DNA of 46,374 nucleotides from a virus, in the IMG/VR virus record IMGVR_UViG_3300028025_001311, positions 1 through 46,374 of that record; one strand, written 5' to 3'. This document shows, piece by piece, positions 8,306-44,550 of the stretch (its first letter is position 1; each line of letters opens with the position of its first letter). The position numbers and the translations under genes were made by a program. The notes under the pieces were generated by a model. That model did no database searches, was not told the DNA's origin, and worked only from the letters and a program-made list of their open reading frames with translations.

Positions 8306-8681
8306 TTGGTGTAAAGATTGTCGTAAACAATCTTCACGAGCATGGGCAAAAGTAAACCCTGAAAAGACTAAAGAAACTAAACGTAATGCTCGAAAGAAAG
8401 AAGGGTATCAATCGTTGTCAAGAGGGTACATCTTGAATCACAGGTATGGGATTACTTTAGATGGTTATGATACATTACTTAAAGAACAAGACGGGTGCTG
8501 TGCTGTGTGTAATGTTAAGCAATCTGACAAATCTTATCACTTTCATGTGGACCATTGCCACACTACGGGGGTAGTACGAGGTCTTCTTTGTTCACCTTGT
8601 AATGTATTTCTTGGTGTCATTAAGGACGACATTGATTCTCTTAAAAGGGCGATAATATATCTAGAAAGGAAAAAGAAATGA
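8223..8681 (+). CDS. Endonuclease VII-type homing nuclease
   Basis: 152 aa read from TTG at 8223; an ATG 24 nt later (8247) is an alternative. The N-terminus has a CxxC pair plus SSWCKDCRK, which makes a zinc finger. The C-terminal half has VDHCHTTGVVRGLLCSPCN, the catalytic His-Me finger of phage endonuclease VII (recombination endonuclease VII) proteins, followed by a helical end. It overlaps the upstream HNH gene by 83 bp in another frame and ends 4 bp inside the next gene, typical of a selfish gene slotted into an operon. It is related to the gene at 11270. Confidence 0.85.
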   Translation: MLKCTKCQMEKQPDQMSKDARRQQGLSSWCKDCRKQSSRAWAKVNPEKTKETKRNARKKEGYQSLSRGYILNHRYGITLDGYDTLLKEQDGCCAVCNVKQSDKSYHFHVDHCHTTGVVRGLLCSPCNVFLGVIKDDIDSLKRAIIYLERKKK

Positions 8682-11301: not shown

Positions 11302-11689
11302 GAAGTGTTCTTGTTGTGGGATAGAAAAAGACTTGATCGATTTCTACCCACATAAGAATACAAAAGATAAATTACGAGCTAAATGTAAACAATGTACTAC
11401 CGCAGAAAACAAAGAATGGGGAGAAAATAATAAAGATAAGAAAAAGAATGCACACTATCGTAGAACATATGGTATTTCATATAATGAAGTTATGCACAGA
11501 CACAGTGTTGTCAATAATAAATGTGAAGTATGTGCAGAAGAAAAAGAACTTCTTGCGGTAGATCATTGCCACACAACAGGAAAAGTTAGAGGACTTTTAT
11601 GTATGAGATGTAATTTACTTCTAGGAAAAATTGAAGAAAATAAAGACATAATTTTCAAGTTGTTTAATTATTTAAAAGAAAGAAGTTGA
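11270..11689 (+). CDS. Endonuclease VII-type homing nuclease between nrdA and nrdB
   Basis: 139 aa. The start at 11270 overlaps the last codons of nrdA, so the first residues (METLAWLAKV) are overprinted on the reductase tail. It has zinc-finger pairs (CSCC, CKQC; CEVC and CMRC) and the catalytic VDHCHTTGKVRGLLCMRCN segment, nearly the same as in the gene at 8223. It ends 1 bp before nrdB and is more A-rich than its neighbours (many aaa/gaa/aat codons), which suggests later arrival. nrd genes are well known targets of phage homing endonucleases. Confidence 0.85.
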   Translation: METLAWLAKVKKCSCCGIEKDLIDFYPHKNTKDKLRAKCKQCTTAENKEWGENNKDKKKNAHYRRTYGISYNEVMHRHSVVNNKCEVCAEEKELLAVDHCHTTGKVRGLLCMRCNLLLGKIEENKDIIFKLFNYLKERS

Positions 11690-13046: not shown

Positions 13047-13467
13047 AGAACTCCATGACACCTACGACAAGTTTGGAAGAGATGTAGTTAAAAGCTATGT
13101 CTCTTCTTTTTGGAATATGGAAGCTAGAGATAATCCCGATAGATATGGGATTGATCTGCATCTGTATAAAGATGATTTGTTGGTGGGGTATGCTGAGGTA
13201 GAGGTCAGACTATCGTGGAAAACTGTAGAGTTTCCATACGAAGATTTGAATGTACCTGCTAGGAAGAAGAAGCTTTTAACACAAGAGCTTCCTACACACT
13301 TCTTCTCAATTAACAAAGATGGAACAGCCTTGTTTCATTGCGAAGCTGCTGCTGTATTAGACTCAGAAGTTAAAGAGTCTAGAAATAAATATGTCTACCA
13401 AGGAGAACTCTTTTACAAAGTCTCTCTTGATAGACTATCTTATGTAGTATTACCTACGGCTAGCTAA
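13024..13467 (+). CDS. Hypothetical protein, possible PD-(D/E)XK nuclease fold
   Basis: 147 aa from ATG 13024 (an in-frame ATG at 12898 would lie inside the previous gene in another frame). A strand pattern runs YGIDLHLYKDDLLVGYAEVEVR, with D44, E58 and E60 in about the spacing of a D...E-x-(K/R) active site. A Lys/Arg-rich segment (PARKKKLL) follows, then another strand pair. This could be a PD-(D/E)XK nuclease such as a junction resolvase, which is otherwise missing from this T7-like set. That is an inference. It is the last + gene and overlaps the - strand block by 18 bp. Confidence 0.6.
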   Translation: MATKRFDKELHDTYDKFGRDVVKSYVSSFWNMEARDNPDRYGIDLHLYKDDLLVGYAEVEVRLSWKTVEFPYEDLNVPARKKKLLTQELPTHFFSINKDGTALFHCEAAAVLDSEVKESRNKYVYQGELFYKVSLDRLSYVVLPTAS

Positions 13468-16400
13468 GCCACCCTTAGCTAAGCCAATCTTCTTTTTAGT
13501 TTCTTTATCTTTGTAGGATCCACCTACCAAGTCTCTAATATTATTTACTGCTTCAATTTCTTTTTTAACAGCAGAAGACATTTCAGTATTAGTGCTGTCA
13601 GAATCAACAACATTTTTACGCAACGTACTAAACTGTTTCTCTAACACTTTAAGAGCCTCAGCCTTATCTTTACTGCCCACCTTTTCTAATGAAGCAATAA
13701 CATCAGGTATGAAATTTTCTAATAAGTCAAAGTTTAATGTATGTGAAGGTCTAGAAAGTTTACCAAGCCTAGAGGCTGTTGATTGATTACTCTTTATAAT
13801 TGGTTTTAACCCAGCCTCACTTACAGCTTTACCCCCCGTTTCTCTAAACTCATTTCTAACAATGTTTCGAATAACTCTATAAGCGTTCCATGCTTGAGCT
13901 TCTTCATTGCTACCTATACCACCTTCTTTAATTGGTTTAAAAGAATCTGGAGATAAGAAGTTTCTTTTGTAATGTTGTAAAAGTTTAAGATAATTTTCAG
14001 ACAATCTCTCTTGTTCTTTAAACACAGGAGTTTTCTTTTCTGTCTCATACATGTTTCTAGAGATAGCCAGCTTTTCACTTTCTGTAAAAGCATCTTCAGA
14101 CTCACGCATACCAATAGATCTAGGAAGTCCTAATGGACGAGCCACTGTAGGAGATCCAGTAATAGATCTTGCAATGGTGTTCATATCTCCAAGCCACATG
14201 TCTTGTTGTATTTTTGTTTTCTTATACTGCTCTCTAGACATGTTGATGCGTCTAAACTCATAATCAGCATATGGAATAGATGTTTGAACAATGTTCTCAG
14301 GATCTGTCCCACCAAAACTTGTGTTGGCATAGTTAAAACGAGCATCAGAAGTAAAGGAAGTTGCTCCTACTTTTAATTCTCTTTGTCCAGCTTGATCTTC
14401 TGGTAGTGTTTGAGGATCAAAGAAACCTTTAGCTGCTCTATCTTCTGCATTATATTCCGTCCCATGATAGAGCACCTTAGGTGGTCTGTCTTTATACTTC
14501 TCTCTGAGCTTGTTAAGTTTCTCTTGTAAAGGCATAGAGAAAGAAACAAAATCTTCTACAGACTTTGGATCATTAACATCCACTTCTTTACCTTTGGCTG
14601 CTCTGTATTCGCCCTGAGCTACAGCAATAACATCATCCTCAACCTTACCTGCCACATTAGGCATTTCAATCAGCTTATCAAAAGCATCTGTCCTCATTTG
14701 CTTAATGGCAGTTAGTGTGTTCTGTCTAACTTCAAAATCTGAAATGATGTCTGAGTCTCTGCTAAATCCATATTTGGCTTTATTTAAATCACCCTCAGCT
14801 ATGCCTTTCATGTAAGGAGACAAAGGAGCAGGGGCCTCTATAGGAGTAGGCTTCTCCATAGGAAGGTCTGTTTTAATCTCAGGCAATGCTTCTGCTTCCA
14901 CCTTAGGTGGTGGTGTGAACGAAGCTTCAGCTTCTGATACAAGCTTCTCCATCTCTGCATCAACAGGCTTAGGCTGAACAGCAGGGCTAACCTTACTCTT
15001 AACAATAGGCGCTTTAACTACAGGAGCAGCCAGTGCTTGTGCTGTTTGTTCTGCCGCAGGAGCAATGGAATGTTTAGAAACAATATCACCAAGAGACAAA
15101 GCTGTTTTCTTAACACCAGCTTCAACAACTTCTCCAAGAATATTCTTAGCTACCACACCACCAACAGCATAGCCCGGCAAAGCTCTCATAGCTTCAGCAT
15201 AGGCCAAGGCAGTGGCATAGTCTTTAGTGGTGGCTAAGTCTTTTCCTTGCTGCTGTTGATATGTTTCATTAACAACACGCTTAAGCTCAGCAGGAAGTTT
15301 AGAATATTGAACTTCATACAGGCGAGGTTGCTTACCAACAGCATAAGCTGCTGCTTCATCTTTATTGGTAGCAATTTCTTTGGCTGTCTTCTGTGCCCAT
15401 CCTATCAGATTCTGTAGAGCCACCTTCTGTAGGTCTTGGCTACCTTCTGCATAGAAGCTTGTCTTCTTAAGGTTGTCAAACTGTTCCATCACCAATGGAG
15501 CCATCACCTTACGAGCTTCAGCATCTACAATCTTGTCACCAGTGGTGGTGAAGATTTTATTGAAAGGTACTTTAAGCCTAATAACTTCTTCTTCCAACTC
15601 AGAAGGTACTCCCTTGATAGCAATACCAGACAACATCTTCAATGGACCATTGTCATTAAATGCTGCTGTTTCTCTCAGAGGTGGTTGATATACTGGAAGC
15701 TCTTGTTTCAAGATAGGAGTACGCTTCATCAACTGTTGCTTAGCTGAAGAAGTAAATCCTTCCTCACCTGCTGGAATCTGATAAGCATCTCTAGGTAGAG
15801 TTTCGTTACGATCAATAGCACCAACAATATCGCTGATCTGTTGGAAAGGAACAAGTGCTCTACCTAAGTATTCACCCACCCACTCACCAAAGAAGGTCTT
15901 AACTTTGTTATCTGCTGTGTCTTCACCAGTTCCTGCATTAGTCTGAGCTTCAGCAAACTTATCACCAAGCCATGAGTATGTACCTGCTGGTGCTTTAAAG
16001 CCAGTCATAGCTTCTAAGAATTCCTTAGACTTAAACTCATCTGTTCTTCCTTTGTTAAATTTAACAAGGTAGTCACCTAATGCTAGGAAAGGAGCAGCAG
16101 GGAATAAAGCTCTAGCATCTACAGTAGAGCCATCAGGATTCTTGATGTTGTACCAGTCAGAGTCTTGGTTTTCTTGTCTGTATTTATAAGCAGCATATAA
16201 AGCAGCAGTGCCTACAGCACCTTTAGAGAAGTTCTCAAGTCCCATAGTGACTTGCTTAGTTCCCATGTCAGCTTCGCCCTTAGCCATCTTTGTTAAGCCA
16301 GCAGCAATGTCTGTGCTACCAGATAACACACCAGTAGGCATGTGCTTATATGTCCACTCCATAGCATTAGCCATGAAGCGAGGGAAAGGAATAACTGTTG

Positions 16401-18561
16401 AGCCAATAGGACCAAGCTCTTCAATAAACTTTACCGCATGGAACATTGGTCCTTTGGTAGGCATCTTACTGAATGTACCAGTGAGGGCTTCATTGACAGC
16501 ATTCTGTAACACATCAAATGGCACTTGTTTACCTTGAGCAATAACATCATACATGTTAATGCCAACACGACTTAGTTGCTTCTCCACTGAGGAAGTGAAC
16601 ATAGCCTTACGGAAGAAAGCATCCTGTGCCACGTTGAATGTGTTAGCAATTTGTGCTGCCTTAGACAAATCATTAGGACCAGCTTCACCTGTTGTTTTAA
16701 CCATCCTTCGATATAAAGCAGGTGTTCCATTTAACAAAGCTTCTGTTACATCAGAAGATAAGTCTCTTTGACCTAAGTAGAAAGCAGAGCGTACAGCATC
16801 ATCATAGACACCCTTCAATCCACCAGTGAAGCTACCTGTCACTGGCTTACCAGTAGCAAGCTCACCTGCTGTCTTACCTAGTCTGTATAAAGAAGATTCA
16901 ATGGCTTCTGCTGCTGTACCAAAGGTAATAACAGACATACCAGAGAAGGCATTCCTAAGGGTGGTAGAAAGCTGAGACACCATCAAGGCTTTCAACTCTC
17001 TATCAAGACGCATACCAAAGTCTTTGATGCCAGTGAATGCTGAAGTGACAGCGCTTCTGTCACCATACATCTTGTTAAGTTCTGAAGCAGCGGCAGGATC
17101 AATGTTCTTTAGTTTGTTTTGTAATCTAGCGACTACAGATAAGCTCTGTAAAGAACGAGCAGCATCACCCGCTGAAGTTCTAAACATCTTAGCAAACTCA
17201 TCTGGTGTTACATCGGCAGAGGCCAATGCTCTTTCAAACACAACATCATCAAATGTATCTACAGATTCAAGTGTACGCTTAATAGCATCAGACACTTTCT
17301 CTGTAGCTTTAGGAGCCAGCTCAGGCATCTGCTCCCAAATGTCTTGAGCAATTAATGTAGCTCTTTTGTTAAGATCGTTTCTAACTTCCATCTGTGCTAC
17401 AGATGTAGGTTTGCCTTGAGCATCAAGAAGCTTACGGCCTTCATAGATGTCATAAGCATCTTCCAATGCTTTATCTGTTGGATCTTTTGGTGTTACTTCT
17501 ACCTTAGGTGCAGGTGTTGTTGGTTCTCCTGCTGCAGGTTTCTTTCTAGTTTTTAGGATTTCATCTAGTTGGCTAGCTGCTCCCTTCTTTCCAGCACGAA
17601 GGAATGGAAGCACTTCTGCTGTCTCAGTGACAGCACCAATAGCACCAGCCAAAGCTACCTGCTTACCTCTAACACCTTCTTCCAGTCTCTTCTGCCTATC
17701 TTCTTTATAATTCTTAAGCAGTTCCTGCCCTTCAGCATCAAGTGTATTAGGATCAATCTTATTAGCTTGATCTAGTTCAGCTTGTGTTACATTCAACTCA
17801 ATTTTTTGACTAGTAGTTTCTTGTGCTGCTGTAGTAGCACCACCAACAGCAGGGGTAGCTGCTGCCATACTAATGCCTTTGGCAGAAGTGAGCGCAGCTT
17901 TAGTTCCTTTTTCTGTTGCTAGTTTTGTTAAGCCACTACTAGCAAGCTTACCTGTTCCTAGTGTAAAAGCGGTAGATGGGCTACTAACAATACTAGAGAT
18001 AAAATCCATTACAGGACGGAATCCACGTTGTCCTCTATTCTTTTCATCAAACACGCCAGCAGTGTTCTTAAACAAGTCATAAGCTGCACCAGCTTTTAAC
18101 TTGTCTTCTTGCTTAGCGTTATTTAAATATTGTAGTTCTCCTACACTGCTAATCTCATTGCCAGTGTCGAGCATTCGCATGTGTGTAGCAAAGCGATTGA
18201 CAAAGTCTTCCTTTGTTTCACCTGCTTTAGGCGTTCCCTCTTTACCAAACCTAGCAGCAGCATAATCTTGGATGGTTTTGAAGTTCTTATCATCTTTCCA
18301 CAAAGCATCAAAAGGAATCTTCTGTGCTTCTTCTTCTCTAATCTTTGCTGCTCTTTCTGTCAAAGCTGTAGCTCTTTGACGAGGGGCTAAGAAGGCAGGT
18401 TTAGTTAAGTCTTCTGCTGGCTTCTCAGTAGGGGCTGCGGCTTTCGCAACAACAGTATCACTAACACCAAAAGAAACTGTAGGTGCTTCAACTATTTTAT
18501 CGTTGATACCAAAACTAGTTGGGGGTGTCTCAACTACTTTGTCATTAATACCGAAAGCCAT
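13450..18561 (-). CDS. Giant internal virion (ejection) protein with mART-like segment
   Basis: 1703 aa, last gene of the leftward ejection operon, in the place of T7 gp16. The N-terminus has three tandem 14-residue repeats (FGINDKVVETPPTS type). A long helical, Ala-rich body follows, with hydrophobic Gly/Ala stretches (about residues 215-245 and 300-315). At about 1362-1370 it reads VLYHGTEY and at about 1400 GATSFTSDARFNYA, matching the HGT...SFT..A..YA pattern of ADP-ribosyltransferase-like domains. The C-terminus ends LAKGGLASRR. I see no transglycosylase motif. It is probably packaged in the head and injected with the DNA. Confidence 0.8.
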   Translation of the reverse strand: MAFGINDKVVETPPTSFGINDKIVEAPTVSFGVSDTVVAKAAAPTEKPAEDLTKPAFLAPRQRATALTERAAKIREEEAQKIPFDALWKDDKNFKTIQDYAAARFGKEGTPKAGETKEDFVNRFATHMRMLDTGNEISSVGELQYLNNAKQEDKLKAGAAYDLFKNTAGVFDEKNRGQRGFRPVMDFISSIVSSPSTAFTLGTGKLASSGLTKLATEKGTKAALTSAKGISMAAATPAVGGATTAAQETTSQKIELNVTQAELDQANKIDPNTLDAEGQELLKNYKEDRQKRLEEGVRGKQVALAGAIGAVTETAEVLPFLRAGKKGAASQLDEILKTRKKPAAGEPTTPAPKVEVTPKDPTDKALEDAYDIYEGRKLLDAQGKPTSVAQMEVRNDLNKRATLIAQDIWEQMPELAPKATEKVSDAIKRTLESVDTFDDVVFERALASADVTPDEFAKMFRTSAGDAARSLQSLSVVARLQNKLKNIDPAAASELNKMYGDRSAVTSAFTGIKDFGMRLDRELKALMVSQLSTTLRNAFSGMSVITFGTAAEAIESSLYRLGKTAGELATGKPVTGSFTGGLKGVYDDAVRSAFYLGQRDLSSDVTEALLNGTPALYRRMVKTTGEAGPNDLSKAAQIANTFNVAQDAFFRKAMFTSSVEKQLSRVGINMYDVIAQGKQVPFDVLQNAVNEALTGTFSKMPTKGPMFHAVKFIEELGPIGSTVIPFPRFMANAMEWTYKHMPTGVLSGSTDIAAGLTKMAKGEADMGTKQVTMGLENFSKGAVGTAALYAAYKYRQENQDSDWYNIKNPDGSTVDARALFPAAPFLALGDYLVKFNKGRTDEFKSKEFLEAMTGFKAPAGTYSWLGDKFAEAQTNAGTGEDTADNKVKTFFGEWVGEYLGRALVPFQQISDIVGAIDRNETLPRDAYQIPAGEEGFTSSAKQQLMKRTPILKQELPVYQPPLRETAAFNDNGPLKMLSGIAIKGVPSELEEEVIRLKVPFNKIFTTTGDKIVDAEARKVMAPLVMEQFDNLKKTSFYAEGSQDLQKVALQNLIGWAQKTAKEIATNKDEAAAYAVGKQPRLYEVQYSKLPAELKRVVNETYQQQQGKDLATTKDYATALAYAEAMRALPGYAVGGVVAKNILGEVVEAGVKKTALSLGDIVSKHSIAPAAEQTAQALAAPVVKAPIVKSKVSPAVQPKPVDAEMEKLVSEAEASFTPPPKVEAEALPEIKTDLPMEKPTPIEAPAPLSPYMKGIAEGDLNKAKYGFSRDSDIISDFEVRQNTLTAIKQMRTDAFDKLIEMPNVAGKVEDDVIAVAQGEYRAAKGKEVDVNDPKSVEDFVSFSMPLQEKLNKLREKYKDRPPKVLYHGTEYNAEDRAAKGFFDPQTLPEDQAGQRELKVGATSFTSDARFNYANTSFGGTDPENIVQTSIPYADYEFRRINMSREQYKKTKIQQDMWLGDMNTIARSITGSPTVARPLGLPRSIGMRESEDAFTESEKLAISRNMYETEKKTPVFKEQERLSENYLKLLQHYKRNFLSPDSFKPIKEGGIGSNEEAQAWNAYRVIRNIVRNEFRETGGKAVSEAGLKPIIKSNQSTASRLGKLSRPSHTLNFDLLENFIPDVIASLEKVGSKDKAEALKVLEKQFSTLRKNVVDSDSTNTEMSSAVKKEIEAVNNIRDLVGGSYKDKETKKKIGLAKGGLASRR

Positions 18562-20647: not shown

Positions 20648-23140
20648 TCAGTCTCCGAATATCCAGTTAATTGCTCTGGTAATTAAGTTGCCACCAGTCT
20701 CGCTACCAACAACTCTAGAAGCAACATTACCAATAGCAGCAGCATTACCCGCTTCAATTGTAGCATTGGCAATAGCCATTTGACCTTCTCTAGCAATCTC
20801 TGCAGCAGCCAGTGATGTAGATCTGTTAGCATCATTCTCAGAAGACTGCCAAGCGTGAGTAACATCATCACGATACATCTGAACATTGTTGTTATATTCA
20901 GCCAATGTAACTTGCTGTGCTAGCTGAGCATTAGCCATGTTAGCAGCATTGGTAGCTGCTGTGTTAGCAGTAGAAATCTCTCTCATCCACTGAGCATTGG
21001 CTTGGTCAATAACCAATCGTTGCTGTGCATTGAAAGTGTCTCTTTGGTTTTGTGACTCTGTATTAAACTTAGCAATAGAGTTTGATTGATCAGTGTTAAA
21101 CTGACTCACTGCTGTAGTTTGTGCAGCATTAAACTGGCTAACTTGTGTAACCATTGTTGCATTAAACTGCGTAACTTGATTCTCACTGGCAGCATTAAAT
21201 TGCTTAGCAGCATTAGCAGAAGCTGTGTCTGATAACAATGCTTGTGTTGTTGCTTGTGCTTTAAACAATACAGCCTGTTGCTCATTGTCTAAGTTCTTCA
21301 TGTCCATAGCCAAGAACGACTGAGCATTAACAACAGCAGCTTGCTGTCTAGCATTCAGGTTTGCTGTGTCCATAGCTGCATATGTAGCAGCATTAGCAAT
21401 GGTGGCAGACTGAGAAGCAGACAGCTCAGCCAAGCCAATAGACTTTAACAACTCACTGTTGTGTAGCTTAGCTTGTTGTTCTGCTGTGAATGTTAAGTTG
21501 GTAGCTTGAGAAATCTTATCAGCATTCAACACAGCAGCTTGCTGTCTATTGTCCAACACCTTGCCTTGCAAAGCAGCTTCAATTTGTGCATTAGCCAAAG
21601 CAACTTGCTGACGGTTAGAAGTGTTAGCCATATCAACTTGCACCTGCATAGCACTGTTGTGCAAAGCAGCTTGCTGTACATTGTTTAAGTTGATGTTAGC
21701 TTGTTCTGCATATCTAGCAGCATTAACAACAGCAGCCTGTTGTTGGTTGTTTAAGTTTTGTCCTTGTAAGGAGGCTCTGATTTGTGTGTTAGCCAACATT
21801 GTTTGTTGCATGTTGGACAAGTTCTGACTCTGTAGCTGGAAAGAACTAGCAGCATTCTGTAGTCTAGCTTGCTGTTCATTACTAAGATTTTGTAATGATA
21901 AGCCTTGTTGAGCAGCGGCATTTGTCAAAGCCACTTGTTGTCTGTTATTTAAATTCTGCAAACCCATTGTTGCAAAGGTTTGTGCATCCTGTACAGCAAT
22001 AGGAAGAGCAGACTCCATAGCAGCTTGGAACACAGCAGTAGCAGCCATAGAGCTACCACCCAATCCTCTTGATGCCATAGCAGCATTAGCTGCCCTCATA
22101 GCACCAGCAGCCCAAGCAGGAGTGCTACCATCATCAAAGCTCTTCATCAGCTCTGTAAGCTGTCCTTGAACAGTGGATTGAGCAGACACATCACCCTGTG
22201 CTGCAGCAGCTAATGTGCCATCATCTACAGTGAACTTGTTTAGACGAGCAGCAACAACCGTAGCATCTGGAGCAAGACCCTCTGATGTAATTGCTGTGGC
22301 TTGAGCCATATCTTTCTCAGCAATCTGAGCAGCCTTAACAAGTTGATTTTCTTGTACAGCGCCCTGAGCAGCTACAACTGCTGTAGGTGCTGCTGTCTGA
22401 GCAGCCTCTGCCTTCACAGCAGTGGCATCAGTTACAGGCGTAACCATTTCACCAGCAACTACTTGACGCTGTCCTGCCTGTACTGCACCTTTGTATTGTT
22501 CGCCTACTTTTTGAGCAGCAGCTACAGCTTCTTTAGACACTTGTCCTTGTGCGGCTGTAACCTCTGCTTCTTTAGACACTTCACCAGCAGCGCCAGTGAC
22601 ACCTGCCAATGCAGCACCAACAGCAGGAGCAGCCTTAGAAGCTTCATATGCTGCAGCTTCACCAGCTTGAGCAGCAGTGGCTTGACCTGCTGTAGCAGTG
22701 GCAGCGCCAGTAACTTGAGCAGCCTGTTGTGCTGCCCTTGGTGTTGTACTAATAGTTTGTTCTGGTGTTGCTGCAATTTGAGCAGCAGTTACTTGAGAAG
22801 GAGCACCAGCAAGTGGCTTACCAAACTCATCAGTGGTGGTGTCTACTGGAAGAGCAGGAGAAGAAGGAAGCATTTGATTGTCGAGGGGAGCACCAGTGTC
22901 ATCCATGATACGATCACCAATAGAAGGACGGACAGCACCAACAGCTCCACCTTGTGCATATCTCTTCATCTTCACCAGTCCACCCTTAGCCATACGCTCA
23001 GAAAACTTACTGGTGATGGCTGCGTACTTAGCCTCCAAAGAAGGAGAAGACGCAATGAACTCATCAAAGCCCTGCATAGGACCATCATAGCCAAGCTTTC
23101 TAGCTACGACTTCTTTCTGTTGTGATGTAAAATCTTTCAT
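20648..23140 (-). CDS. Ejection/structural protein with 22/11-residue repeats (830 aa)
   Basis: 830 aa. The N-terminal 60 residues are globular-like and include RMAKGGLVKMKRYAQGGAVG (AKGG motif twice). Residues about 60-390 are extremely Ala/Gln/Thr/Val-rich (AAQVTGAATATAGQATAAQ style). Residues 394-635 are 11 tandem 22-mers of the type LQNLNNRQQVALTNAAAQQG; residues 646-755 are ten 11-mers of the type SQFNAAQTTAV. A hendecad pattern predicts a very long, nearly straight helix or bundle. The C-terminus (NLITRAINWIFGD) is amphipathic. In place and size it fits a T7 gp14/15-like ejection protein. Confidence 0.75.
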   Translation of the reverse strand: MKDFTSQQKEVVARKLGYDGPMQGFDEFIASSPSLEAKYAAITSKFSERMAKGGLVKMKRYAQGGAVGAVRPSIGDRIMDDTGAPLDNQMLPSSPALPVDTTTDEFGKPLAGAPSQVTAAQIAATPEQTISTTPRAAQQAAQVTGAATATAGQATAAQAGEAAAYEASKAAPAVGAALAGVTGAAGEVSKEAEVTAAQGQVSKEAVAAAQKVGEQYKGAVQAGQRQVVAGEMVTPVTDATAVKAEAAQTAAPTAVVAAQGAVQENQLVKAAQIAEKDMAQATAITSEGLAPDATVVAARLNKFTVDDGTLAAAAQGDVSAQSTVQGQLTELMKSFDDGSTPAWAAGAMRAANAAMASRGLGGSSMAATAVFQAAMESALPIAVQDAQTFATMGLQNLNNRQQVALTNAAAQQGLSLQNLSNEQQARLQNAASSFQLQSQNLSNMQQTMLANTQIRASLQGQNLNNQQQAAVVNAARYAEQANINLNNVQQAALHNSAMQVQVDMANTSNRQQVALANAQIEAALQGKVLDNRQQAAVLNADKISQATNLTFTAEQQAKLHNSELLKSIGLAELSASQSATIANAATYAAMDTANLNARQQAAVVNAQSFLAMDMKNLDNEQQAVLFKAQATTQALLSDTASANAAKQFNAASENQVTQFNATMVTQVSQFNAAQTTAVSQFNTDQSNSIAKFNTESQNQRDTFNAQQRLVIDQANAQWMREISTANTAATNAANMANAQLAQQVTLAEYNNNVQMYRDDVTHAWQSSENDANRSTSLAAAEIAREGQMAIANATIEAGNAAAIGNVASRVVGSETGGNLITRAINWIFGD
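20876..21961 (-). repeat. 22-mer and 11-mer coding repeats inside the 830-aa protein
   Basis: Eleven consecutive 22-residue units (consensus xxNLNNxQQAAxxNAxxxAxx) are followed after a 10-residue spacer by ten 11-residue units (xQFNAxxxxxV, decaying to ANAQxxxx). The 22-mers are two 11s, so the whole block of about 352 residues keeps one hendecad register. At the DNA level the copies are diverged, so this is an old repeat under selection at protein level. Confidence 0.85.
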
Positions 23141-26756: not shown

Positions 26757-28988
26757 TTAAAGATTAGCGGCATCCAAACGTGCCTTGAGTGATTCAATGA
26801 TTGCTTGTTGCTCTTGGATGGCTTTGACCAATCTTGCTTCTGTTTTACTCCAACCAGAAACAGTCAACATTCCATCTTCACGCTCACCAACAGCATCTGG
26901 ATAAACGGCTTGCATCTCTTGCGCAATAAAACCCGTCTGATGACCTCCACCTTCAGATTCAATGTAGTCAAATTCAACTGGGTGTAATGCCAAAATGTTT
27001 GAAAGTTGAGAAGGCAAATCAACAATGTTTTCTTTCAAACGTTGGTCAGAATAAGTACCAAAAGCCAATGTATTGGCTCCGTTCATATTGATCTGACCAG
27101 CGCCTGCTCCAGTACTTAAAATTGTCGCTCTAAGAATTACTTGAGAAGTCGTAGTGTTGTTGTCTTGCTTTCCAATTAACAAACCAGCCTGACCAACATC
27201 GCCTGCTGTACTGCTATAAAACGTAACAAGTGACGCAGACGTTGCATCACCATTAACAGCCAATTTACCAGTTTGACTCGTAGTCCCCACCAGCAAGTTA
27301 CCGCTTGAGTCTATACGGGCACGTTCTGTTGAACTTGTACCAAACGCCAATATGCCTGTTGATGGTGTTAGTAAAGAAACACCTGAAGTTAAGTTAATCT
27401 GCAAGTCGGCACTTGTTGTATCTGTAAAACTAGCGACATTACCACCCGCTGAACTAGATACACTAAGTTTGTTACTTGGTGAACTAGTACCAATACCTAC
27501 ATTTTGACCGCCAGTATCGACATAAAGAACAGATGTTCCAATACGATTTCTTACATTGAACGTTGTGTTGTCTGAGCCAGTGCTACTTTGGCGGCCCACA
27601 ATAACAGATGCGGAGGTACTTCCCGTAGTAACAATAAGATCACCAGATGTCACAGAACCAGAAACGCTTCCTACATCAAGTTTTCCAGCAGGCGAACTTG
27701 TACCAATACCCAAATTCCCACTAGCATCCAGAGTCATTGCCTGAGTAAAGGTAATGGCGTTTCCTGCTGTGCCTGATGCTGCTATGTACCAAGAGTGATC
27801 GCCAGAACTACTGTTCTGCACATACATTTGAGCGTAGTTATTTTGCAAGTATCGCCAGTTACCATCGTTATAGGCATTGGTAGTAACTCTTGTTCGCCAA
27901 GTTGTAGCATCGCCAGAAAAAGCAGCCCCATTTATCTGTAGGGCTTTTCCGAAGGTAAAAGCACTAGGAGTAACTCCCAAGCCTAGATTGCCTGAGGAGT
28001 CGAGGATTGCTGTCTGTGTATTATTTGTAAAGAAGCGAAGCCCAAGACCAGTATTTGCTAAGATAACAGGCTCACCACCAGAGTAGGTCAATTTACCTAG
28101 CACAGTCCCTGCTGTTGCTTGCCATTGCGTTACTCCAACAATATCAAGTTTGCTAGTAGGACTACTTGTACCAATACCCAGACCTGTGCTGGTTAGGCGC
28201 ATTTGTTCTGAGCCGCCCGCAGCAAACACCTGCTGATTGCCGTACAAGAACAAAGATGCGGCAGTCGGAGAAGTGACCTGTCCCAAATAGACATTGTTGT
28301 CGTTACCAAGAGTTAAAACCTGTTGCGCTGTCCCGCCAGTGTTCTTGATTTGAAACGCTTTGTTATTGGCAAGCGTAGTGTTACCAGTCGTCTCTAAGTT
28401 AGTCCCATCAAAAGTAAGCGCAGAACCGCTTGTAACAACCTTAGAGCCGTTTAAATACGCTACTCCGTTAGCAGTACCTCCAGAGAGGGTTACAGTACTA
28501 GAGGTAGTTAGTGCTTCAGCACTGATAGTTCCAGTAAGTGTAGGGCTGGCAGACATAACAACATTGCCAGTACCAGTGATGGCATTGCTCACCAAGCCTT
28601 TAGAGCCATCAGTAAACACAGCTCTGCTTGCTGTAAGGCTAGACAGTATAGGCTGTGCTGTCAGCGTAACCACACCAGTGACAGCCAATGTGCCACCAAT
28701 ACTACCATTACCTGCCAAGAACAAGTCTTTAAATTTTAAAGCGCTGCTACCAATGTCTACAGTGTTTGTAGTTTTAGGAGCTAACAAAGTAGCAGAAATA
28801 GTTACATCTTGTGTAGGACCAAGCGCATTAATGGTAGCACCTTCACCAGCAGTACCGTCATGCTTGTGTCCTGTAGACGCATTAAACGCATCTTGTACAC
28901 CATCAAACTCAGCATCTAAGTCTGCAGCATTAATCACATTACCATCGGCAATGTTGTTGGTAGTATCTTTACGAACATATCCCGTCAT
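26757..28988 (-). CDS. Tail fibre with S74 intramolecular chaperone
   Basis: 743 aa. The N-terminus (TGYVRKDTTNNIADGNVINA and DLDAEFDGVQDAFN) is a virion-attachment type. The middle is made of Gly/Ser/Thr-rich beta repeats with the recurring phrase (L)GIGTSSP and SGNLGLG, as in trimeric beta-helical fibres. The C-terminus from S647 (YSDQRLKENI) is a peptidase S74 chaperone: self-cleavage is expected before S647, with D648 beside it, and the domain ends in a coiled-coil helix (ARLVKAIQEQQAIIESLKAR). It would recognise the host surface; the repeats are a likely site of host-range change. Confidence 0.88.
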   Translation of the reverse strand: MTGYVRKDTTNNIADGNVINAADLDAEFDGVQDAFNASTGHKHDGTAGEGATINALGPTQDVTISATLLAPKTTNTVDIGSSALKFKDLFLAGNGSIGGTLAVTGVVTLTAQPILSSLTASRAVFTDGSKGLVSNAITGTGNVVMSASPTLTGTISAEALTTSSTVTLSGGTANGVAYLNGSKVVTSGSALTFDGTNLETTGNTTLANNKAFQIKNTGGTAQQVLTLGNDNNVYLGQVTSPTAASLFLYGNQQVFAAGGSEQMRLTSTGLGIGTSSPTSKLDIVGVTQWQATAGTVLGKLTYSGGEPVILANTGLGLRFFTNNTQTAILDSSGNLGLGVTPSAFTFGKALQINGAAFSGDATTWRTRVTTNAYNDGNWRYLQNNYAQMYVQNSSSGDHSWYIAASGTAGNAITFTQAMTLDASGNLGIGTSSPAGKLDVGSVSGSVTSGDLIVTTGSTSASVIVGRQSSTGSDNTTFNVRNRIGTSVLYVDTGGQNVGIGTSSPSNKLSVSSSAGGNVASFTDTTSADLQINLTSGVSLLTPSTGILAFGTSSTERARIDSSGNLLVGTTSQTGKLAVNGDATSASLVTFYSSTAGDVGQAGLLIGKQDNNTTTSQVILRATILSTGAGAGQINMNGANTLAFGTYSDQRLKENIVDLPSQLSNILALHPVEFDYIESEGGGHQTGFIAQEMQAVYPDAVGEREDGMLTVSGWSKTEARLVKAIQEQQAIIESLKARLDAANL

Positions 28989-35246: not shown

Positions 35247-35810
35247 TCAACTAGGTTGTCTGCTTACTTTGTTATGCGTTACTAAATGACAAAGCTCAAT
35301 AAACTGTTTTTCAGTGTAATCAAGCTTCATCCTATTGATAGGAACACAGACAAGTTGAATGTTATCAACTGTGTAGTCTTTGCTACTATCTATCCTGTCT
35401 AGGCTTACTGTATTAAGTTGGTGGCTTTCGCTAGTCAGCGGCAACTTAGTGTAAACACATAGACCCTTTTGTCTCTGCCAAACATCATGAAGATGTTCAA
35501 CAGTGATAAAACACTTTTTATTCTTTCGTTCACCAGCTGTTTTAACTAGCTGGTCAAACTTTTGATCAAGAGTTAGATTTTTATATCTCTTTTGGTTCTT
35601 GATCTTAATTTTATCTTTGTTTCTACTACGAAACACTTTGTCTTGGTCTTTAGCTTTCTCCGGATTAGCTTCCCGCCATTCCTTAAGGTTTTTTGCTAAA
35701 CAAACTTTACACTGAGTTTTATACCCAGTTCCTGTAGTTTTACCAGACTTACCAAACTCACTTAATACCTTAACTTCACCGCACTTGCGGCAGGTCTTAA
35801 CTTCATCCAT
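35247..35810 (-). CDS. HNH homing-type endonuclease before the capsid gene
   Basis: About 187 aa from the ATG at 35810 (gggga upstream); a TTG 12 nt earlier is an unlikely alternative. The N-terminus has CRKC and CKVC zinc-finger pairs (TCRKCGEVKVLSEFG; YKTQCKVCLAKNL). The middle is a Lys/Arg-rich DNA-binding stretch with EANPEKAKDQDKVFRSRNKD. The nuclease part is SLDRIDSSKDYTVDNIQLVC, the D/N-containing end of a His-Me finger. It is A-rich and lies between scaffold and capsid, separate from both, with near-identical 13-bp repeats at its flanks. It is probably a mobile free-standing endonuclease. Confidence 0.82.
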   Translation of the reverse strand: MDEVKTCRKCGEVKVLSEFGKSGKTTGTGYKTQCKVCLAKNLKEWREANPEKAKDQDKVFRSRNKDKIKIKNQKRYKNLTLDQKFDQLVKTAGERKNKKCFITVEHLHDVWQRQKGLCVYTKLPLTSESHQLNTVSLDRIDSSKDYTVDNIQLVCVPINRMKLDYTEKQFIELCHLVTHNKVSRQPS

Positions 35811-35827
35811 AACTATCCCCAATTAGA

Positions 35828-35917: not shown

Positions 35918-36781
35918 TTAACGAGCACTTCCGCTAATATCGTATACAAACTTACCTGATTGTAGTGCTTTAGCAATAGCTTCTTGATTCTTTTCGTACT
36001 CATAGGTAGACATTTTATTTACCTGTGACTCATAAAAGACACCATCTTTGCTTTCGCCTGTAGGCGCAGAACGACTACCACGGGTGTTAACACTTTCTGC
36101 TGCACCTTTATCTGGGGTAGACTTCTTCGTCTTAATATTCTTATCAGCCTTGTAAAGATCAATGGCACGGGCAGCAGCCCTTGCGTCACTGTCGTTATCA
36201 TACAAAGCATCTTGCACCCACTTAGGTTGTTCTTCAACCCAGTTGTGGAAATCATCATCATCACGGATGGAGTCAAAGTCTGGATGCAGACGCATCAACT
36301 CAGCCTCTGCTTTCTCCTTAGCTGTTTGATGCTCACGCTCATCAAGCTGTTTGAACCTCTCATCCAATGCTTGGGTTTGTTCCTTAGCCTTTTTAATTGC
36401 AATTGTTTCTACAATCTTTGCAACATCAGGATAGGTTTTAGCCCACTCATTCAATTCTTCTTCACTCTTAGGAAGCTTAATTTGCTTCTCTGTGCTGCTC
36501 TGTAGCTGTGAACGAAGCTCATCAATCTGCTTCTGCAAAGCTACTTGCTGTTGCTGAGAATGTCTGCGAAGATCACCGTAACGCTTCTTAAAGCTTTTCT
36601 CTTCTCCGCTTAAGTTACTATCATCACCATCTTGTGGGTCTTGTGGTGGATTGTTCTTATCTTCAGCCAATCGTTTCAACTCTGCTTCTTCTTGTTCAAT
36701 CTTATCCTTGTTAGCATTACGCTTACCAAATGGAGAGAACGCCTGAGCCTGTTGGTTCTGATTAATCACCGCTTCTGTCAT
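35918..36781 (-). CDS. Scaffolding protein
   Basis: 287 aa, very hydrophilic and helical. It has an acidic N-terminal half (EQEEAELKRLAEDKNN; DPQDGDDSNLSGEE), a long coiled coil (about residues 65-170, QQQVALQKQIDELRSQLQSS) and a basic linker (NIKTKKSTPDKGA). The C-terminal helix-turn-helix-like end (YEYEKNQEAIAKALQSGKF) is the usual capsid-binding end of scaffolds. It precedes the capsid gene in transcription order. Confidence 0.82.
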   Translation of the reverse strand: MTEAVINQNQQAQAFSPFGKRNANKDKIEQEEAELKRLAEDKNNPPQDPQDGDDSNLSGEEKSFKKRYGDLRRHSQQQQVALQKQIDELRSQLQSSTEKQIKLPKSEEELNEWAKTYPDVAKIVETIAIKKAKEQTQALDERFKQLDEREHQTAKEKAEAELMRLHPDFDSIRDDDDFHNWVEEQPKWVQDALYDNDSDARAAARAIDLYKADKNIKTKKSTPDKGAAESVNTRGSRSAPTGESKDGVFYESQVNKMSTYEYEKNQEAIAKALQSGKFVYDISGSAR

Positions 36782-36903: not shown

Positions 36904-39048
36904 TTATTTCCTAGAAGCAATGCCTCTTTTTTGAGCAGGTGTTGTCTTTTTAACACGCTTAGTAATAAGACCGCCCTTAGCTACAGCAAGAACTTGAGGT
37001 TCCTCTTCCATAGGTCTAGCAGCAAAAGAACCTCCAAAGCCATCTACCGCAGTCATACTAGCACTACTAATCATTTTCACGTTATGAGATAGGAAACCTT
37101 CAGTAATATAGGTATGTGCATCACCAATAGTAATCTTAACAATAGATCCGTGATCAAAATATTTGCTTGATTTAACAATACCAAATCCTTCTTGTTGAAC
37201 AAGCTTATCTCCAGAAGTTAAATTCTGAATTTCAACCCAATCATTTTCAGTGCGTACTCGATGGTTAAATGTACCAACAAATGTTCGACCATCTTCAAGC
37301 ATCACTTCCCAACGATCATCTTCTCCTGTTCCAACATTAGTTACAGGATATACACCCCATTCATTAGTAGTTTCGTGACGAGTGTAAACTTGCATTCCAG
37401 TTTTAACATCACCTGCTTTTACTACACTACCATCTGCTAGTAAGATATTAATCCAAGGAGCGGGACATCCCACATCATCTCCACTGTCTCCCATATCAGT
37501 GTTTCCACCCATATCACCACCAGCTTCACCACCTCCAGCTTCACCACCCCCAGCTTCACCACCTCCGCCACCAGCTTCACCTCCTCCACCGCCAGTTTCA
37601 CCACCACCGCCAGTTTCACCTCCACCACTCTGGCGAGCTTCAGTATCAGCACCACTAGTTAAACTATCAGCGCCAGCACTGCCGCCTTGACCACCAAGAG
37701 CTATGTCAGTTGCAGTTTGCTGTGATGCAGGTTCTGCTGCTTTAGCTTCTGCACCTGCTGTAGCATTTGCAGCATCTCTACCAGCTTGAGCAGCCTCAGA
37801 AGCTGAGCCACCTTTTACAACCACACTGGCAGCAGCCTGACTAGCCGCACCTACAGCAGCATCACTGAAGCCACTACTTGTAGCATCAGCGGCTGCTTGA
37901 GCAGCAGCAGTTGCAGCAGTGCCGCCAGTACCGCCTTTGTCAACAGGACCCGCAGTAGCTGCTGGCTGAGTTGCATTCAGATTAGTGCCCATTGTGTCAC
38001 CAATGGCTGCAGAGAAAGCTTTAGCTGAACTAGTAGCTAAGGCATTATTAATTCTTCCTGCAACGCTAAGCAAAGGATTAACCATACCAGCAACAGTCAT
38101 CACTGTTCTATCTACAGTGTTGGGTGTAACACTACCGTCAGGATTTAAGGTGAATCCACCCATACCTGTACTTACAGCACCTGTATCTGTAGCTGTAATA
38201 GAACCACCATAGGAATTTACTCCCTGTCCTTTATCGCCCATAAAGGCTGCGTTAGGAGGAGGAGTGGTTGTAGTAGTCTGTGGTGTACTAGTAGGAGTAT
38301 CTTCAGTAGGAGAAGTAACATCAACAATTGGTATGTTAGTAGGAATACTTACTGGATTAATAGAAGTTTCTCTTATCTTTCCACCACCACCTGTTGCAAC
38401 AATGTTTGTTGGATTGGCTACACCCGTAGCAGGCGGTGGAGTTGTACCTACCATCCTACTTGCAGGATTGGCATCAACCACTGAGTATCCTTTAGGGATT
38501 CTTCCAGAAGGCTTGCCGTTGAAATAGGTCATGTACAAAGAATCACCAGCAGCATTCTTCAAAAGTCTTACATCATTTGCTGGATTTGTAATGGCTGTTC
38601 TTTGAATGTTGTATTTAGCTAAGATGTCTTTACTAGCTTCTGGAACTTTAACAACACCACCAGCAGCAAACTTCTGTTCACCTATTTGCTCACCATCAAC
38701 TTCAGAGATGATGTCATCAATCTCTGATTCAAATTCTTCATCACCTTCATGCAAAGCTTCTGGGTTTTCAACTTGATCAGCATTACCCATCTGACCAATC
38801 TCTGCCATTCGATTGAGTCCCTGCTTAGCTTCATCACGAAGCTTCATCAATCTTTCAAGACCAATATATCTAACAACATCAGCAGGAATAACAAACTCAC
38901 CTTCGCTGAGCCTTGCAGGAATATCATCTCTCACTTCATTCTGCAAAGAACCCGGAGGTACGTCATTGCCGGACACAGGATCTACTGTGCCGCCTTCATC
39001 TTTCATGCCGCCTTCAGCAAAGAGTTGCTCTGTATCATTGTTGTACAT
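36904..39048 (-). CDS. Virion-associated protein with C-terminal Hint (intein-like) domain
   Basis: 714 aa. The N-terminus (LFAEGGMKDEGGTVDPVSGN; DDIPARLSEGEFVIPADVV) is a conserved part of proteins encoded after the portal in many phages. Then come a Thr/Pro-rich and Ala-rich middle and a Gly-Glu linker (GGGEAGGGEAGG type, coded at about 37500-37630). A 129-aa Hint domain spans C528-N656: block A CPAPWINILLADGS, block B T593-x-x-H596 (GTFNHRV), block G YITEGFLSHN. The residue after N656 is Val, not Cys/Ser/Thr. The last 58 residues include AVAKGGLITKR and a basic end. It is probably self-processing. Confidence 0.8.
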   Translation of the reverse strand: MYNNDTEQLFAEGGMKDEGGTVDPVSGNDVPPGSLQNEVRDDIPARLSEGEFVIPADVVRYIGLERLMKLRDEAKQGLNRMAEIGQMGNADQVENPEALHEGDEEFESEIDDIISEVDGEQIGEQKFAAGGVVKVPEASKDILAKYNIQRTAITNPANDVRLLKNAAGDSLYMTYFNGKPSGRIPKGYSVVDANPASRMVGTTPPPATGVANPTNIVATGGGGKIRETSINPVSIPTNIPIVDVTSPTEDTPTSTPQTTTTTPPPNAAFMGDKGQGVNSYGGSITATDTGAVSTGMGGFTLNPDGSVTPNTVDRTVMTVAGMVNPLLSVAGRINNALATSSAKAFSAAIGDTMGTNLNATQPAATAGPVDKGGTGGTAATAAAQAAADATSSGFSDAAVGAASQAAASVVVKGGSASEAAQAGRDAANATAGAEAKAAEPASQQTATDIALGGQGGSAGADSLTSGADTEARQSGGGETGGGGETGGGGGEAGGGGGEAGGGEAGGGEAGGDMGGNTDMGDSGDDVGCPAPWINILLADGSVVKAGDVKTGMQVYTRHETTNEWGVYPVTNVGTGEDDRWEVMLEDGRTFVGTFNHRVRTENDWVEIQNLTSGDKLVQQEGFGIVKSSKYFDHGSIVKITIGDAHTYITEGFLSHNVKMISSASMTAVDGFGGSFAARPMEEEPQVLAVAKGGLITKRVKKTTPAQKRGIASRK
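37081..37467 (-). other. Hint/BIL-like domain coding segment
   Basis: Codes residues C528 to N656 of the 714-aa protein. It has the N-terminal Cys preceded by Gly, the TxxH of block B, and the terminal His-Asn (H655-N656), with no homing-endonuclease insert (129 residues). Val at the +1 position argues against normal protein splicing and for the A-type bacterial intein-like (BIL) class. Confidence 0.75.
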
Positions 39049-39247
39049 TCACTTCATCCTTTAGATGTTTTAATCTGCGTAAAGCAGCAATGGCTCCTTG
39101 AGCCTTTCCAATCTCACGCACATCAACAGCTTGTTCTAAGTTTTTATGATGCTGAGCAATTTCAGCATCCACCATATCTAAGAACGCTTCCCATGTAGCG
39201 TTAGTGTTTACGAAGCCTTTAAGCTTGGGGAGGTACGGCTTGTACAT
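39035..39247 (-). CDS. Small helical protein after portal (70 aa)
   Basis: The ATG at 39247 is chosen because the product then begins MYKPYLPKLKGFVN, a conserved-looking start; earlier in-frame codons overlap the portal C-terminus. 70 aa, helical, with the segment AEIAQHHKNLEQAV and RLKHLKDEVN at the end. It overlaps the portal gene by 29 bp and the 714-aa gene by 14 bp. Similar short proteins with 'Af-D-v-aeI-----L' follow portals in related phages. Function is unknown. Confidence 0.65.
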   Translation of the reverse strand: MYKPYLPKLKGFVNTNATWEAFLDMVDAEIAQHHKNLEQAVDVREIGKAQGAIAALRRLKHLKDEVNVQQ

Positions 39248-41315
39248 TACCAGCAAATCCTTGTTCACCCGGCACTGGTGCAGCACCAACGCCAATATTT
39301 CCACCACCACCACCAGTCATATCAGACACTGGGGGAGGACCACCTTCAGGACCACCAACAGGAGGAGCACCCTCTGCAGGAGCAGGAGCTGTAGCTTGTT
39401 GCATCAGCAAAGCTTGACGCATAGCTTCTTCCATATTGTTAGTAACCTTGTCTGGATCTAAGTCCATACTCTTTGCAATCTCACGAATGATGTAAGGGAA
39501 CTTAGCAAATGGCATCAATGCAGGAGAGCTAGCAATTTGCAAGAACTGCATCAATCGCTGGCTTCTCACCTCATTAGCCATCAAGCTCTCTGTACCTCTA
39601 GCTGTAACTTCCAAGTCTCCTTTGATTGATTTATCAAAGTCAAACTGCATGTTAAAGCTAAAGAAAGCCTTACCCAACGGAGCTAACAAATAATCATCCA
39701 CATTCTTGATGATGGTTTTAACACTGCCAGACGCAGCATTCATCAACATAGAAATGCCAGAGGCTGTTCTACCAACACCACTCACACCAGTTTGTCCGTG
39801 TGCAAATGATGGCATACCTGTAGATTCATCAGCAAGCTGTCGTGCCTTGTCAAACAGTTGTAAGTTCTCAGCAGCTACGTTAGGAAACTTAGTTCCAAAC
39901 AAGCTTTGACCGGGAGCACCACCCTGTCGCCTAAACACTTTACCGGGGTAGACAGACATGTCTTGTCCGGGAACAAGGTTGGTTTCATCAACCTCAAACA
40001 CAAGGTTGCCCGACAACACCGCATTGTCCACTGCCATACGCATAAAACCATTCATGAGGGTCTGGGTGTCGTCCATGTTTTCAGCGACACCAATGCCAAA
40101 TAGAGAGTAGGGGTTTAATTCGCAAGGAGCAGCATAGTACGGAATGTTGGCGGGCTTAAACGGATTTAATACTAAGCGCATAATCTTGCCATTGCAAAAC
40201 CATACGTTAGCTTGGAGTTCTTTGTAGTCTTCAAGTTCTTCTGGGATAGTAATGTCGTTTTCTTTAAGCAAGTCGATGTCAACATTGCCCCAATATTCCA
40301 ACACTTCAAATCTATCTATACCAAAGTTGGGAGCATAGTCTTTTAAATCATCTTCCCAATATTTCTTAGCATAAGAAGAACCTGCTTCAATCACTTCTTC
40401 AATAACACTAGCCCTGAACAATGGGCGATTTTTTAAAGCTCTAAGTTGTGTAGAGCTAAGCTTGTGACGCTCAATAATGTATTGAGCTTCTTCCATGTTA
40501 GTGGCATCAGGATCAGGATAGAAGTTCCAGATAGAAACATGTGATGTTTCTGGTACTGTCTTCATCTCTGGTGTATAAGTACCTTCTTCATCCCAGTTTG
40601 GATATTCCTTAGTCTTAGCAAAAGGACCTTTCATGATGCCTGTACCAAACAGAGCCATCTCAAAAGCTGTAGAGCGAAGATGTTTATTAGCACCACTCTC
40701 ATCCAACTGGTCATGTATCTTCTTCTCCATCTTCTTAGCTGCAACCATTGCAGGATGGAACGTGATAGATGAGGGAGTTACACCCGGACCTTCTTTAAGT
40801 CCTTTGGTATCTTTAAGTTGATCTGTCAATGGACCAAGACGATCCATTAAAGTCTTTAATGTAGCACCGGGTGGTAGATCTTTACCATCACCTTTATAAC
40901 CAAACGGAGAAGCTATTTCAACTTCTGCACCCTCTGGTGCTTTAGGATCAATATGTACTGTATCAACTACGCCTTCTGGCAATACAGTGGGATCAACACT
41001 AAGAGGAAACTTATTGTTAGCAAATAACACATCAGTGATTTGACCATATGCTGCAAGCACCTTGGTCTTTGTCACTTTAATAAATACACGGCTCTTCTCT
41101 GTCTCAGTGAATTTAACATCTGGTCCATAAATACCACGATAGTTTCTATAAGCTCTCAACCAACGCTGTTCGTCTTGTCTACGGCTTTCTTCACTCTTGG
41201 TATATCTTTCCCTTAGAAAATTTAAGAGAAGATCTCCCGTGAAAGGAGCAGCTTCGCCCTCTTTCTTATCTCCTAAGCTAATAGACTTATCGTCCATAAA
41301 ATTATTTTGCGCCAT
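39219..41315 (-). CDS. Portal protein
   Basis: 698 aa. The N-terminal helix-rich region (LRERYTKSEESRRQDEQRW; YRNYRGIYG), the wing (TAFEMALFGTGIMKGPFAK), the strand-rich region (SIWNFYPDPDATNMEEAQYI), the stem/crown (GRTASGISMLMNAASGSVK; IIKNVDDYLLAPLGKAF) and a Pro/Gly-rich tail are typical of podovirus portals. It forms the dodecameric ring at the capsid vertex for packaging and ejection. It is transcribed after terL (9-bp gap) and is longer than the T7 portal (536 aa). Confidence 0.9.
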   Translation of the reverse strand: MAQNNFMDDKSISLGDKKEGEAAPFTGDLLLNFLRERYTKSEESRRQDEQRWLRAYRNYRGIYGPDVKFTETEKSRVFIKVTKTKVLAAYGQITDVLFANNKFPLSVDPTVLPEGVVDTVHIDPKAPEGAEVEIASPFGYKGDGKDLPPGATLKTLMDRLGPLTDQLKDTKGLKEGPGVTPSSITFHPAMVAAKKMEKKIHDQLDESGANKHLRSTAFEMALFGTGIMKGPFAKTKEYPNWDEEGTYTPEMKTVPETSHVSIWNFYPDPDATNMEEAQYIIERHKLSSTQLRALKNRPLFRASVIEEVIEAGSSYAKKYWEDDLKDYAPNFGIDRFEVLEYWGNVDIDLLKENDITIPEELEDYKELQANVWFCNGKIMRLVLNPFKPANIPYYAAPCELNPYSLFGIGVAENMDDTQTLMNGFMRMAVDNAVLSGNLVFEVDETNLVPGQDMSVYPGKVFRRQGGAPGQSLFGTKFPNVAAENLQLFDKARQLADESTGMPSFAHGQTGVSGVGRTASGISMLMNAASGSVKTIIKNVDDYLLAPLGKAFFSFNMQFDFDKSIKGDLEVTARGTESLMANEVRSQRLMQFLQIASSPALMPFAKFPYIIREIAKSMDLDPDKVTNNMEEAMRQALLMQQATAPAPAEGAPPVGGPEGGPPPVSDMTGGGGGNIGVGAAPVPGEQGFAGNVQAVPPQA

Positions 41316-44081: not shown

Positions 44082-44239
44082 TATTTCTTCTTAGCTTTCA
44101 TTGGCTTACCAACACCAATCATGATAGCCACCATAGGCTTACCACCTTTACCCTCTTTAGCCATACACTTACCAGCAGCTTTACACTTGGCTGGTGTGGG
44201 GCATCCCTCACAAGGCTTAAATGCTTTCTTTGTAGCCAT
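44081..44239 (-). CDS. Small Cys-rich basic protein (52 aa)
   Basis: ATG at 44239; its TAA overlaps the next ATG by one base. 52 residues beginning MATKK with CEGCPTPAKCKAAGKC, a four-Cys cluster that could hold zinc, then a Lys/Gly-rich and Met-rich tail (EGKGGKPMVAIMIGVGKPM). No family is recognised. It belongs to the run of tiny basic genes upstream of the terminases. Confidence 0.7.
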   Translation of the reverse strand: MATKKAFKPCEGCPTPAKCKAAGKCMAKEGKGGKPMVAIMIGVGKPMKAKKK

Positions 44240-44550
44240 CATTTACCTTTCTTAGCTGTAGCAGCTTTCTTAACAGCGCCACCCTTAGCCATAGCTTTGA
44301 CAGGAGGCTTCATAGCATAACCACCACCCATCATCTTCTTCTCTTTGTTAGTGGCTGTACGGCTACCTCTTACAGGCATACCACCCTTAGCCATCTTTGT
44401 AGGAGGGGTAGGAGCTTTCTTGGTTTCTTCAAAAGCCTTACGCTCTAGCTCATTAGCCCTGTCCAAATAGGTGTTACGCACCTCTTGAGGAATGGAAGCG
44501 TCCTTAGCCTTCTCACGGTACATCTTAACTTTTTCTGCATCGGTAGCCAT
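44239..44550 (-). CDS. Small basic protein with AKGG motifs (103 aa)
   Basis: 103 aa. The N-terminal half is helical and acidic/basic mixed (DAEKVKMYREKAKDASIPQE; NTYLDRANELERKAFEE). The second half is disordered and basic with TKMAKGGMPVRGSRTATNKE and AMAKGGAVKKAATAKKGK. The AKGG motif occurs twice and is shared with several virion proteins. The charge and composition fit a packaged DNA-binding protein. ATGA coupling to the next gene. Confidence 0.7.
   Translation of the reverse strand: MATDAEKVKMYREKAKDASIPQEVRNTYLDRANELERKAFEETKKAPTPPTKMAKGGMPVRGSRTATNKEKKMMGGGYAMKPPVKAMAKGGAVKKAATAKKGK

Follow-up and report, generated by a model that had tools for sequence, protein, structure and literature searches.

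The analysed window, a 46,374-nucleotide stretch of viral DNA (IMG/VR record IMGVR_UViG_3300028025_001311), encodes a phage protein whose Gly-rich linker contains a HINT domain that is absent from all complete relatives of the same gene. The reading which we consider probable is that this is a recently inserted A-type BIL-like HINT domain belonging to a large phage-borne branch, and that it is self-processing and gives mixed products, with cleavage probably dominant.

The host gene and its genomic setting

The sequence-only reading had described a gene for a protein of 714 aa at 36904-39048. Translation bears this out, the ORF being located on the minus strand, as the plus strand across the same positions contains many stops. 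The gene, its parts and its neighbours are as follows.

36904..39048, minus strand: host gene, 714 aa, HMO-2011-like virion protein (ORF translation, tblastn)
38479..39048, minus strand: conserved N-terminal part, residues 1-190, motif ...DDIPARLSEGEFVIPADVV (216 relatives in viral contigs, alignment)
37468..37629, minus strand: Gly/Glu-rich linker, residues about 474-527 (aligns with the Gly-rich linkers of Hint-less relatives)
36904..37062, minus strand: conserved C-terminal tail ASMTAVDGFGGSF...AKGGLITKRVKKTTPAQKRGIASRK plus stop (also in Hint-less relatives)
39219-41315, minus strand: portal gene (profile match)
35918-36781, minus strand: scaffold-like gene, phrog_13678 ("scaffold" assigned by position)
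35247-35822, minus strand: putative HNH-like nuclease gene (assigned by eye, without a confident family match)

The minus-strand order is terminase large subunit, portal, a small ORF, the 714-aa protein, the scaffold-like protein, the small putative HNH-like protein and the major head protein. The position of the 714-aa gene among the terminase, portal, scaffold-like and major head genes suggests that its product is a structural (virion) protein; a profile search of the window's genes gave no family name to the protein itself. Its N-terminal part is matched by HMO-2011 and related Roseobacter CRP phages (tblastn), which indicates that the window is a fragment of an HMO-2011-like phage. Presumably this part (residues 1-190) resembles tape-measure-like tails; its AlphaFold2 model is of low confidence (pLDDT 52).

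Elsewhere in the window, a further virion protein is predicted to cleave itself, namely a tail-spike-like protein (26757-28988, minus strand) with a C-terminal Peptidase_S74 intramolecular chaperone (PF13884, E 2e-16). Small nuclease genes are found on the plus strand (8223-8681, 11270-11689 and 7847-8305), two being endonuclease VII-like and one HNH. The motif (F/Y/M)A-x-GG-(L/V/A/M) occurs in four separate predicted proteins, at 20648-23140, 13450-18561, 44239-44550 and 36904-39048 (-).

Identity of the inserted domain

The domain retains the catalytic residues of HINT domains intact, and these are given below with their conservation in the phage-borne family.

37081..37467, minus strand: HINT / A-type BIL-like domain, C528-N656, 129 aa (Pfam, PDB, AlphaFold2, Foldseek, alignment)
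37465..37467, minus strand: C528, at the Hint Cys1 position, predicted to act as nucleophile in the N-S acyl shift (conserved in 63/63 aligned members)
37372..37377, minus strand: H558-E559 of the family T-x-H-E motif (H 59/63, E 62/63)
37261..37272, minus strand: block B, T593-F-N-H596 (H596 63/63; position 593 Ser in 48/63, Thr in 14/63)
37114..37116, minus strand: H645 in the AHTY motif, block F (63/63, a partly biased count as AHTY was a search pattern)
37081..37086, minus strand: H655-N656, block G, predicted Asn cyclisation site (63/63 each)
37075..37080, minus strand: V657 (+1) and K658 (+2), without a canonical +1 nucleophile, candidate amines for ligation (64 of 70 clusters have Lys at one of the two positions)

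Both sequence comparison and structure modelling support well a HINT/BIL-type identity of C528-N656. The best Pfam match is PT-HINT (PF07591, E 3.7e-5), at 24.4 bits and hence under the cut-off of 27.7 bits, and phmmer matched a DnaX mini-intein in the PDB (E 4.9e-4), while a 22-sequence family profile finds its best PDB sequence match in the BIL domain of C. thermocellum (2lwy, E 1.7e-11). An AlphaFold2 model of the domain built from a 9-sequence alignment has a pLDDT of 91.7 and a pTM of 0.81, and with this model Foldseek gives E-values down to 5e-11 and TM-scores of 0.84-0.89 to the top inteins and BIL domains. The top ranks include DnaB inteins, Tetrahymena BIL2 (TMq 0.87-0.89) and 2lwy (TMq 0.86), with Hedgehog 1at0 lower in the ranking (E 3e-7). 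The window genome gave no match to Hint_2 (PF13403), which is the wrong sub-family, and no homing-endonuclease region is present within the 129 Hint residues.

The domain agrees with all three published criteria for A-type BIL domains (PMC4031507). It has the HINT fold with blocks A, B, F and G, Cys1, TxxH and a C-terminal His-Asn and lacks an endonuclease; there is no Cys, Ser or Thr at +1 (V657); and it is seated in the variable Gly-rich linker of a non-conserved protein. Among the features of class 1 inteins, it has intein-free alleles and lacks both Cys/Ser/Thr at +1 and a conserved functional insertion site. On these sequence grounds we read it as a predicted active A-type BIL domain. The sequence-only reading had proposed an A-type BIL-like Hint without endonuclease, with C528, T593-x-x-H596, H655-N656 and V657 as key positions, a Gly/Glu-rich linker upstream of C528 and a C-terminal piece of 58 residues. 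The translation contains all of these, the piece after N656 being the AKGG-bearing tail, and every feature of the proposal that can be tested on sequence holds. Profile search and structure prediction, two of the checks suggested with it, both returned Hint, intein or BIL matches.

Insertion into a Hint-less gene

Eighty viral loci that encode the conserved N-terminal part were compared, and 71 of these reach the natural stop, although some are near-identical contigs and not all are independent. None of the 71 complete relatives has a Hint, and the domain was seen once in the window's host family. The Hint-less relatives keep the Gly-rich linker and the AKGG tail, the closest sharing the tail with the window protein (for example L008, ...GASMTAVDGFGSSFAAKPMEQEAQVLAVAKGGLITKRVKKTTSAQKRGIASRK), and in a global alignment against L008 the Hint appears as an extra block within the Gly-rich linker. 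The 71 complete relatives and the empty-site alignment strongly support the earlier suggestion that a self-processing module has been added to this gene. The fact that the portal, scaffold-like protein and capsid of the Hint-less locus L002 are 97.7-98.3% identical to those of the window points to a recent gain.

The single occurrence in this host family, together with a Hint G+C content of 36.7% in a gene of 44.6%, is what would be expected of an inactive passenger or an assembly artefact. Such an origin is nevertheless highly improbable, as the Hint is in frame with its catalytic residues intact, its family is under purifying selection and independent insertions are found in another host family. 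A chimera, moreover, would scarcely be expected to keep the reading frame across the two junctions within one gene whose flanks match the same relatives. It should be noted that an unprocessed insert could be tolerated in a linker that looks disordered, which counts against the self-processing reading.

The nearest Hint (L081, 77% identity) resides in another phage, in a protein unrelated to that of the window, and is the sister of the window's Hint in the tree (support 0.87). A Hint-less member of that host family, L217, reads TSSLFGG-GFGGSTGGGGKYFDD, and L081 reads TDSLFGG-(Hint plus about 15 residues)-RGGSGGGGKYYDD. In this family 50 complete ORFs are without Hint and six carry one, and of the loci fetched by host sequence only two of 80 have a Hint. 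A different Hint clade (CVDP start) is found in the same host family in L201, L203 and L287, ahead of the same conserved C-terminal region. A stretch of 51-55 bp of tail-coding DNA, with 85-86% nucleotide identity, is common to L217 and to the tails of L013, L032 and L037, thus to the two otherwise unrelated host families, and lies beside the Hint insertion sites, which suggests that recombination in shared tails may be a route for moving an endonuclease-free domain. Linked homing by the HNH-like gene (35247-35822), two genes downstream of the Hint gene, was considered and rejected; the gene, variably present between scaffold and capsid among relatives, also occurs in Hint-less ones (22/80 loci) and is therefore not coupled to the Hint.

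A phage-borne Hint family

Relatives were collected in successive scans of IMG/VR and GTDB and reduced to 70 clusters below 90% identity, a few of which are outgroup Hints. At least 60 distinct relatives are located in phage virion-like proteins. Among the hosts are a tail assembly protein similar to lambda gpI (phrog_32, E 1e-54) and a tail fibre protein similar to gpJ (phrog_5616, E 1e-61); others are tail-fibre-like proteins, a protein judged by eye to be tape-measure-like (L082) and numerous Pro/Gly-rich proteins of unknown family. A first GTDB scan with a narrow alignment gave no relatives and one with a wider alignment gave eight; members occur in the genomes of Sphingomonas melonis (strain AS2.3, locus L208, in a short-tailed gpJ-like protein) and Anaeromyxobacter sp. 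PSR-1, apparently as parts of prophages. Within 50,697 phage records only distant Hints were detected (terminase inteins, Lak-phage Hints and one faecal contig).

Some phages hold more than one Hint. Two of the phage family are encoded by neighbouring ORFs in a 319 kb contig (L127) and two within one long ORF in L199, and upstream ORFs in L183 and L113 carry, in the same phages, a second and different Hint type (CFxPGTLIT start) 8-9 residues before the stop. In Prevotella phage Lak-B5 (L101, locus 2962 onward) an ORF of about 163 aa is almost all Hint and ends in HN-SGSNF.

Cys1, the block-B His, AHTY and His-Asn are invariant in the 63 aligned members, and T-x-H-E is nearly so. For CPxP and AHTY this conservation is partly circular, as both were contained in two search patterns, while His-Asn and the residues that follow were in no wide-scan pattern. 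Low dN relative to dS indicates that the Hint domain is under purifying selection: L090 and L091 differ by a dN of 0.07 and a dS of 0.50, and the window and L081 by a dN of 0.13, their dS being so high that no estimate could be made. The +1 residue is mostly K, I or V, and Lys occupies +1 in 36 clusters and +2 in 28, in contrast to a Lys frequency of 2.7% at +4 to +20. Lys at +1/+2 was rejected as a hallmark of the phage branch. Bacterial Hint controls retrieved with the same profile or with PT-HINT have it as well, in 9 of the 15 with a clear His-Asn end (by eye), which makes it a trait of the wider BIL group and not specific evidence for a phage mechanism.

Proposed processing and its alternatives

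Established HINT chemistry is the source of the steps proposed for C528 and N656. C528 would form a thioester with G527, aided by T593 and H596, and N656 would cyclise, aided by H655, thereby freeing the tail. As position +1 offers no nucleophile, the thioester could either be hydrolysed (cleavage) or be attacked by an amine, the candidates being the alpha-amine of V657 and the epsilon-amine of the K658 side chain. Cleavage would yield a free AKGG tail, and re-joining a protein of about normal length, much like the Hint-less relatives. We infer each of these steps, as well as the proportions of the products and any advantage that the phage would gain. A-type BIL domains end in His-Asn without a +1 nucleophile and mainly cleave, with some splicing via the freed amino group (PMC4031507; PMC7664689); attack of the alpha-amine on the thioester has been proposed for them (PMC4031507), and for Tetrahymena BIL2 the formation of a Lys isopeptide bond has been reported (PMC8616854).

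The predominance of cleavage among known A-type BILs (PMC4031507; PMC7664689) is also consistent with cleavage only, in which the AKGG tail or the whole C-terminus would be released as a maturation or timing step. We judge this possible but rather unlikely, as the Hint-less relatives keep the tail attached and separation is thus unnecessary for the common function of the protein. Efficient intein-like splicing would instead remove the Hint and re-join the AKGG tail by a normal peptide bond, leaving the insertion nearly neutral. Without C528-N656 the linker is indeed about as long as that of L012 (33 versus 34 residues, by eye), and the tail is still conserved and in frame. However, the lack of Cys/Ser/Thr at +1, the tendency of characterised A-type BILs to cleave (PMC4031507; PMC7664689) and the seat in a variable linker, where inteins usually occupy a conserved active site, make such splicing unlikely. 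What speaks against the favoured mixture of products is that re-joining would be without obvious use in about half of the relatives, as the Hint ends at most 18 residues from the stop in 30 of 65 complete ORFs, often leaving 4-18 residues.

This near-C-terminal position on tail proteins, the gpI-like, gpJ-like and tail-fibre hosts and the Lys isopeptide precedent of BIL2 (PMC8616854) may also be seen as signs of a Hedgehog/BIL2-like transfer, by which the N-terminal virion protein would pass from C528 to a Lys on a neighbour, tail or host surface and so link virion parts. We regard this as doubtful, since no sterol-recognition or other acceptor-binding domain is seen after the Hint, the acceptor is only hypothetical and the window protein has a long conserved tail. 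Equally speculative is the idea that a dedicated phage BIL branch makes ATP-free Lys isopeptide joints, the conserved +1/+2 Lys or a partner Lys taking the virion protein from the Cys1 thioester and thereby cross-linking or tagging virion parts.

Novelty and significance

A-type BIL domains, like uncultured phage proteins annotated 'Hint domain', are already known. In the open-access literature, to which the search extended, no earlier description of a phage-virion or phage-tail BIL branch was found. That the same gene exists in nature both with and without the Hint, and that named bacteria have members of the family, allows a direct test of the effect of the domain on the virion. The family thereby makes the purpose of A-type BIL domains easier to test, and it could become a source of small ligation modules that need no ATP.

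Comparison with known systems

The Hedgehog C-terminal autoprocessing domain (1at0) has a similar fold, and many of the phage relatives are near-C-terminal like Hog. In contrast to Hedgehog, the window Hint keeps His-Asn and is followed not by a sterol-recognition region but by the 58-aa AKGG tail common to Hint-less relatives. The pretoxin HINT family (PT-HINT, PF07591) gives the best Pfam match, though below the curated cut-off, and no toxin domain follows the window Hint. Class 1 mini-inteins (DnaB, DnaX, gp41-1, RecA) share the fold and catalytic blocks A, B, F and G, whereas the window Hint lacks the +1 Cys/Ser/Thr and is not placed at the conserved active site of an essential enzyme. BIL2 of Tetrahymena thermophila (BUBL1 locus, PDB 6y75/6tmm) has the fold and Cys1 in common with the phage Hint, but BIL2, which has a zinc switch, sits between ubiquitin-like domains in a eukaryote, while the phage Hint sits in a virion protein. 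A Lys isopeptide is reported for BIL2 (PMC8616854), and in the phage family the conservation of Lys hints at a similar use. The A-type BIL domain of C. thermocellum (2lwy) is alike in fold, Cys1, TxxH, C-terminal His-Asn, lack of a +1 nucleophile and variable host region. What sets the phage family apart from A-type BILs is its virion-protein hosts, its CPxP start, its T-x-H-E and AHTY motifs and, in about half of its members, a very short C-terminal remnant.
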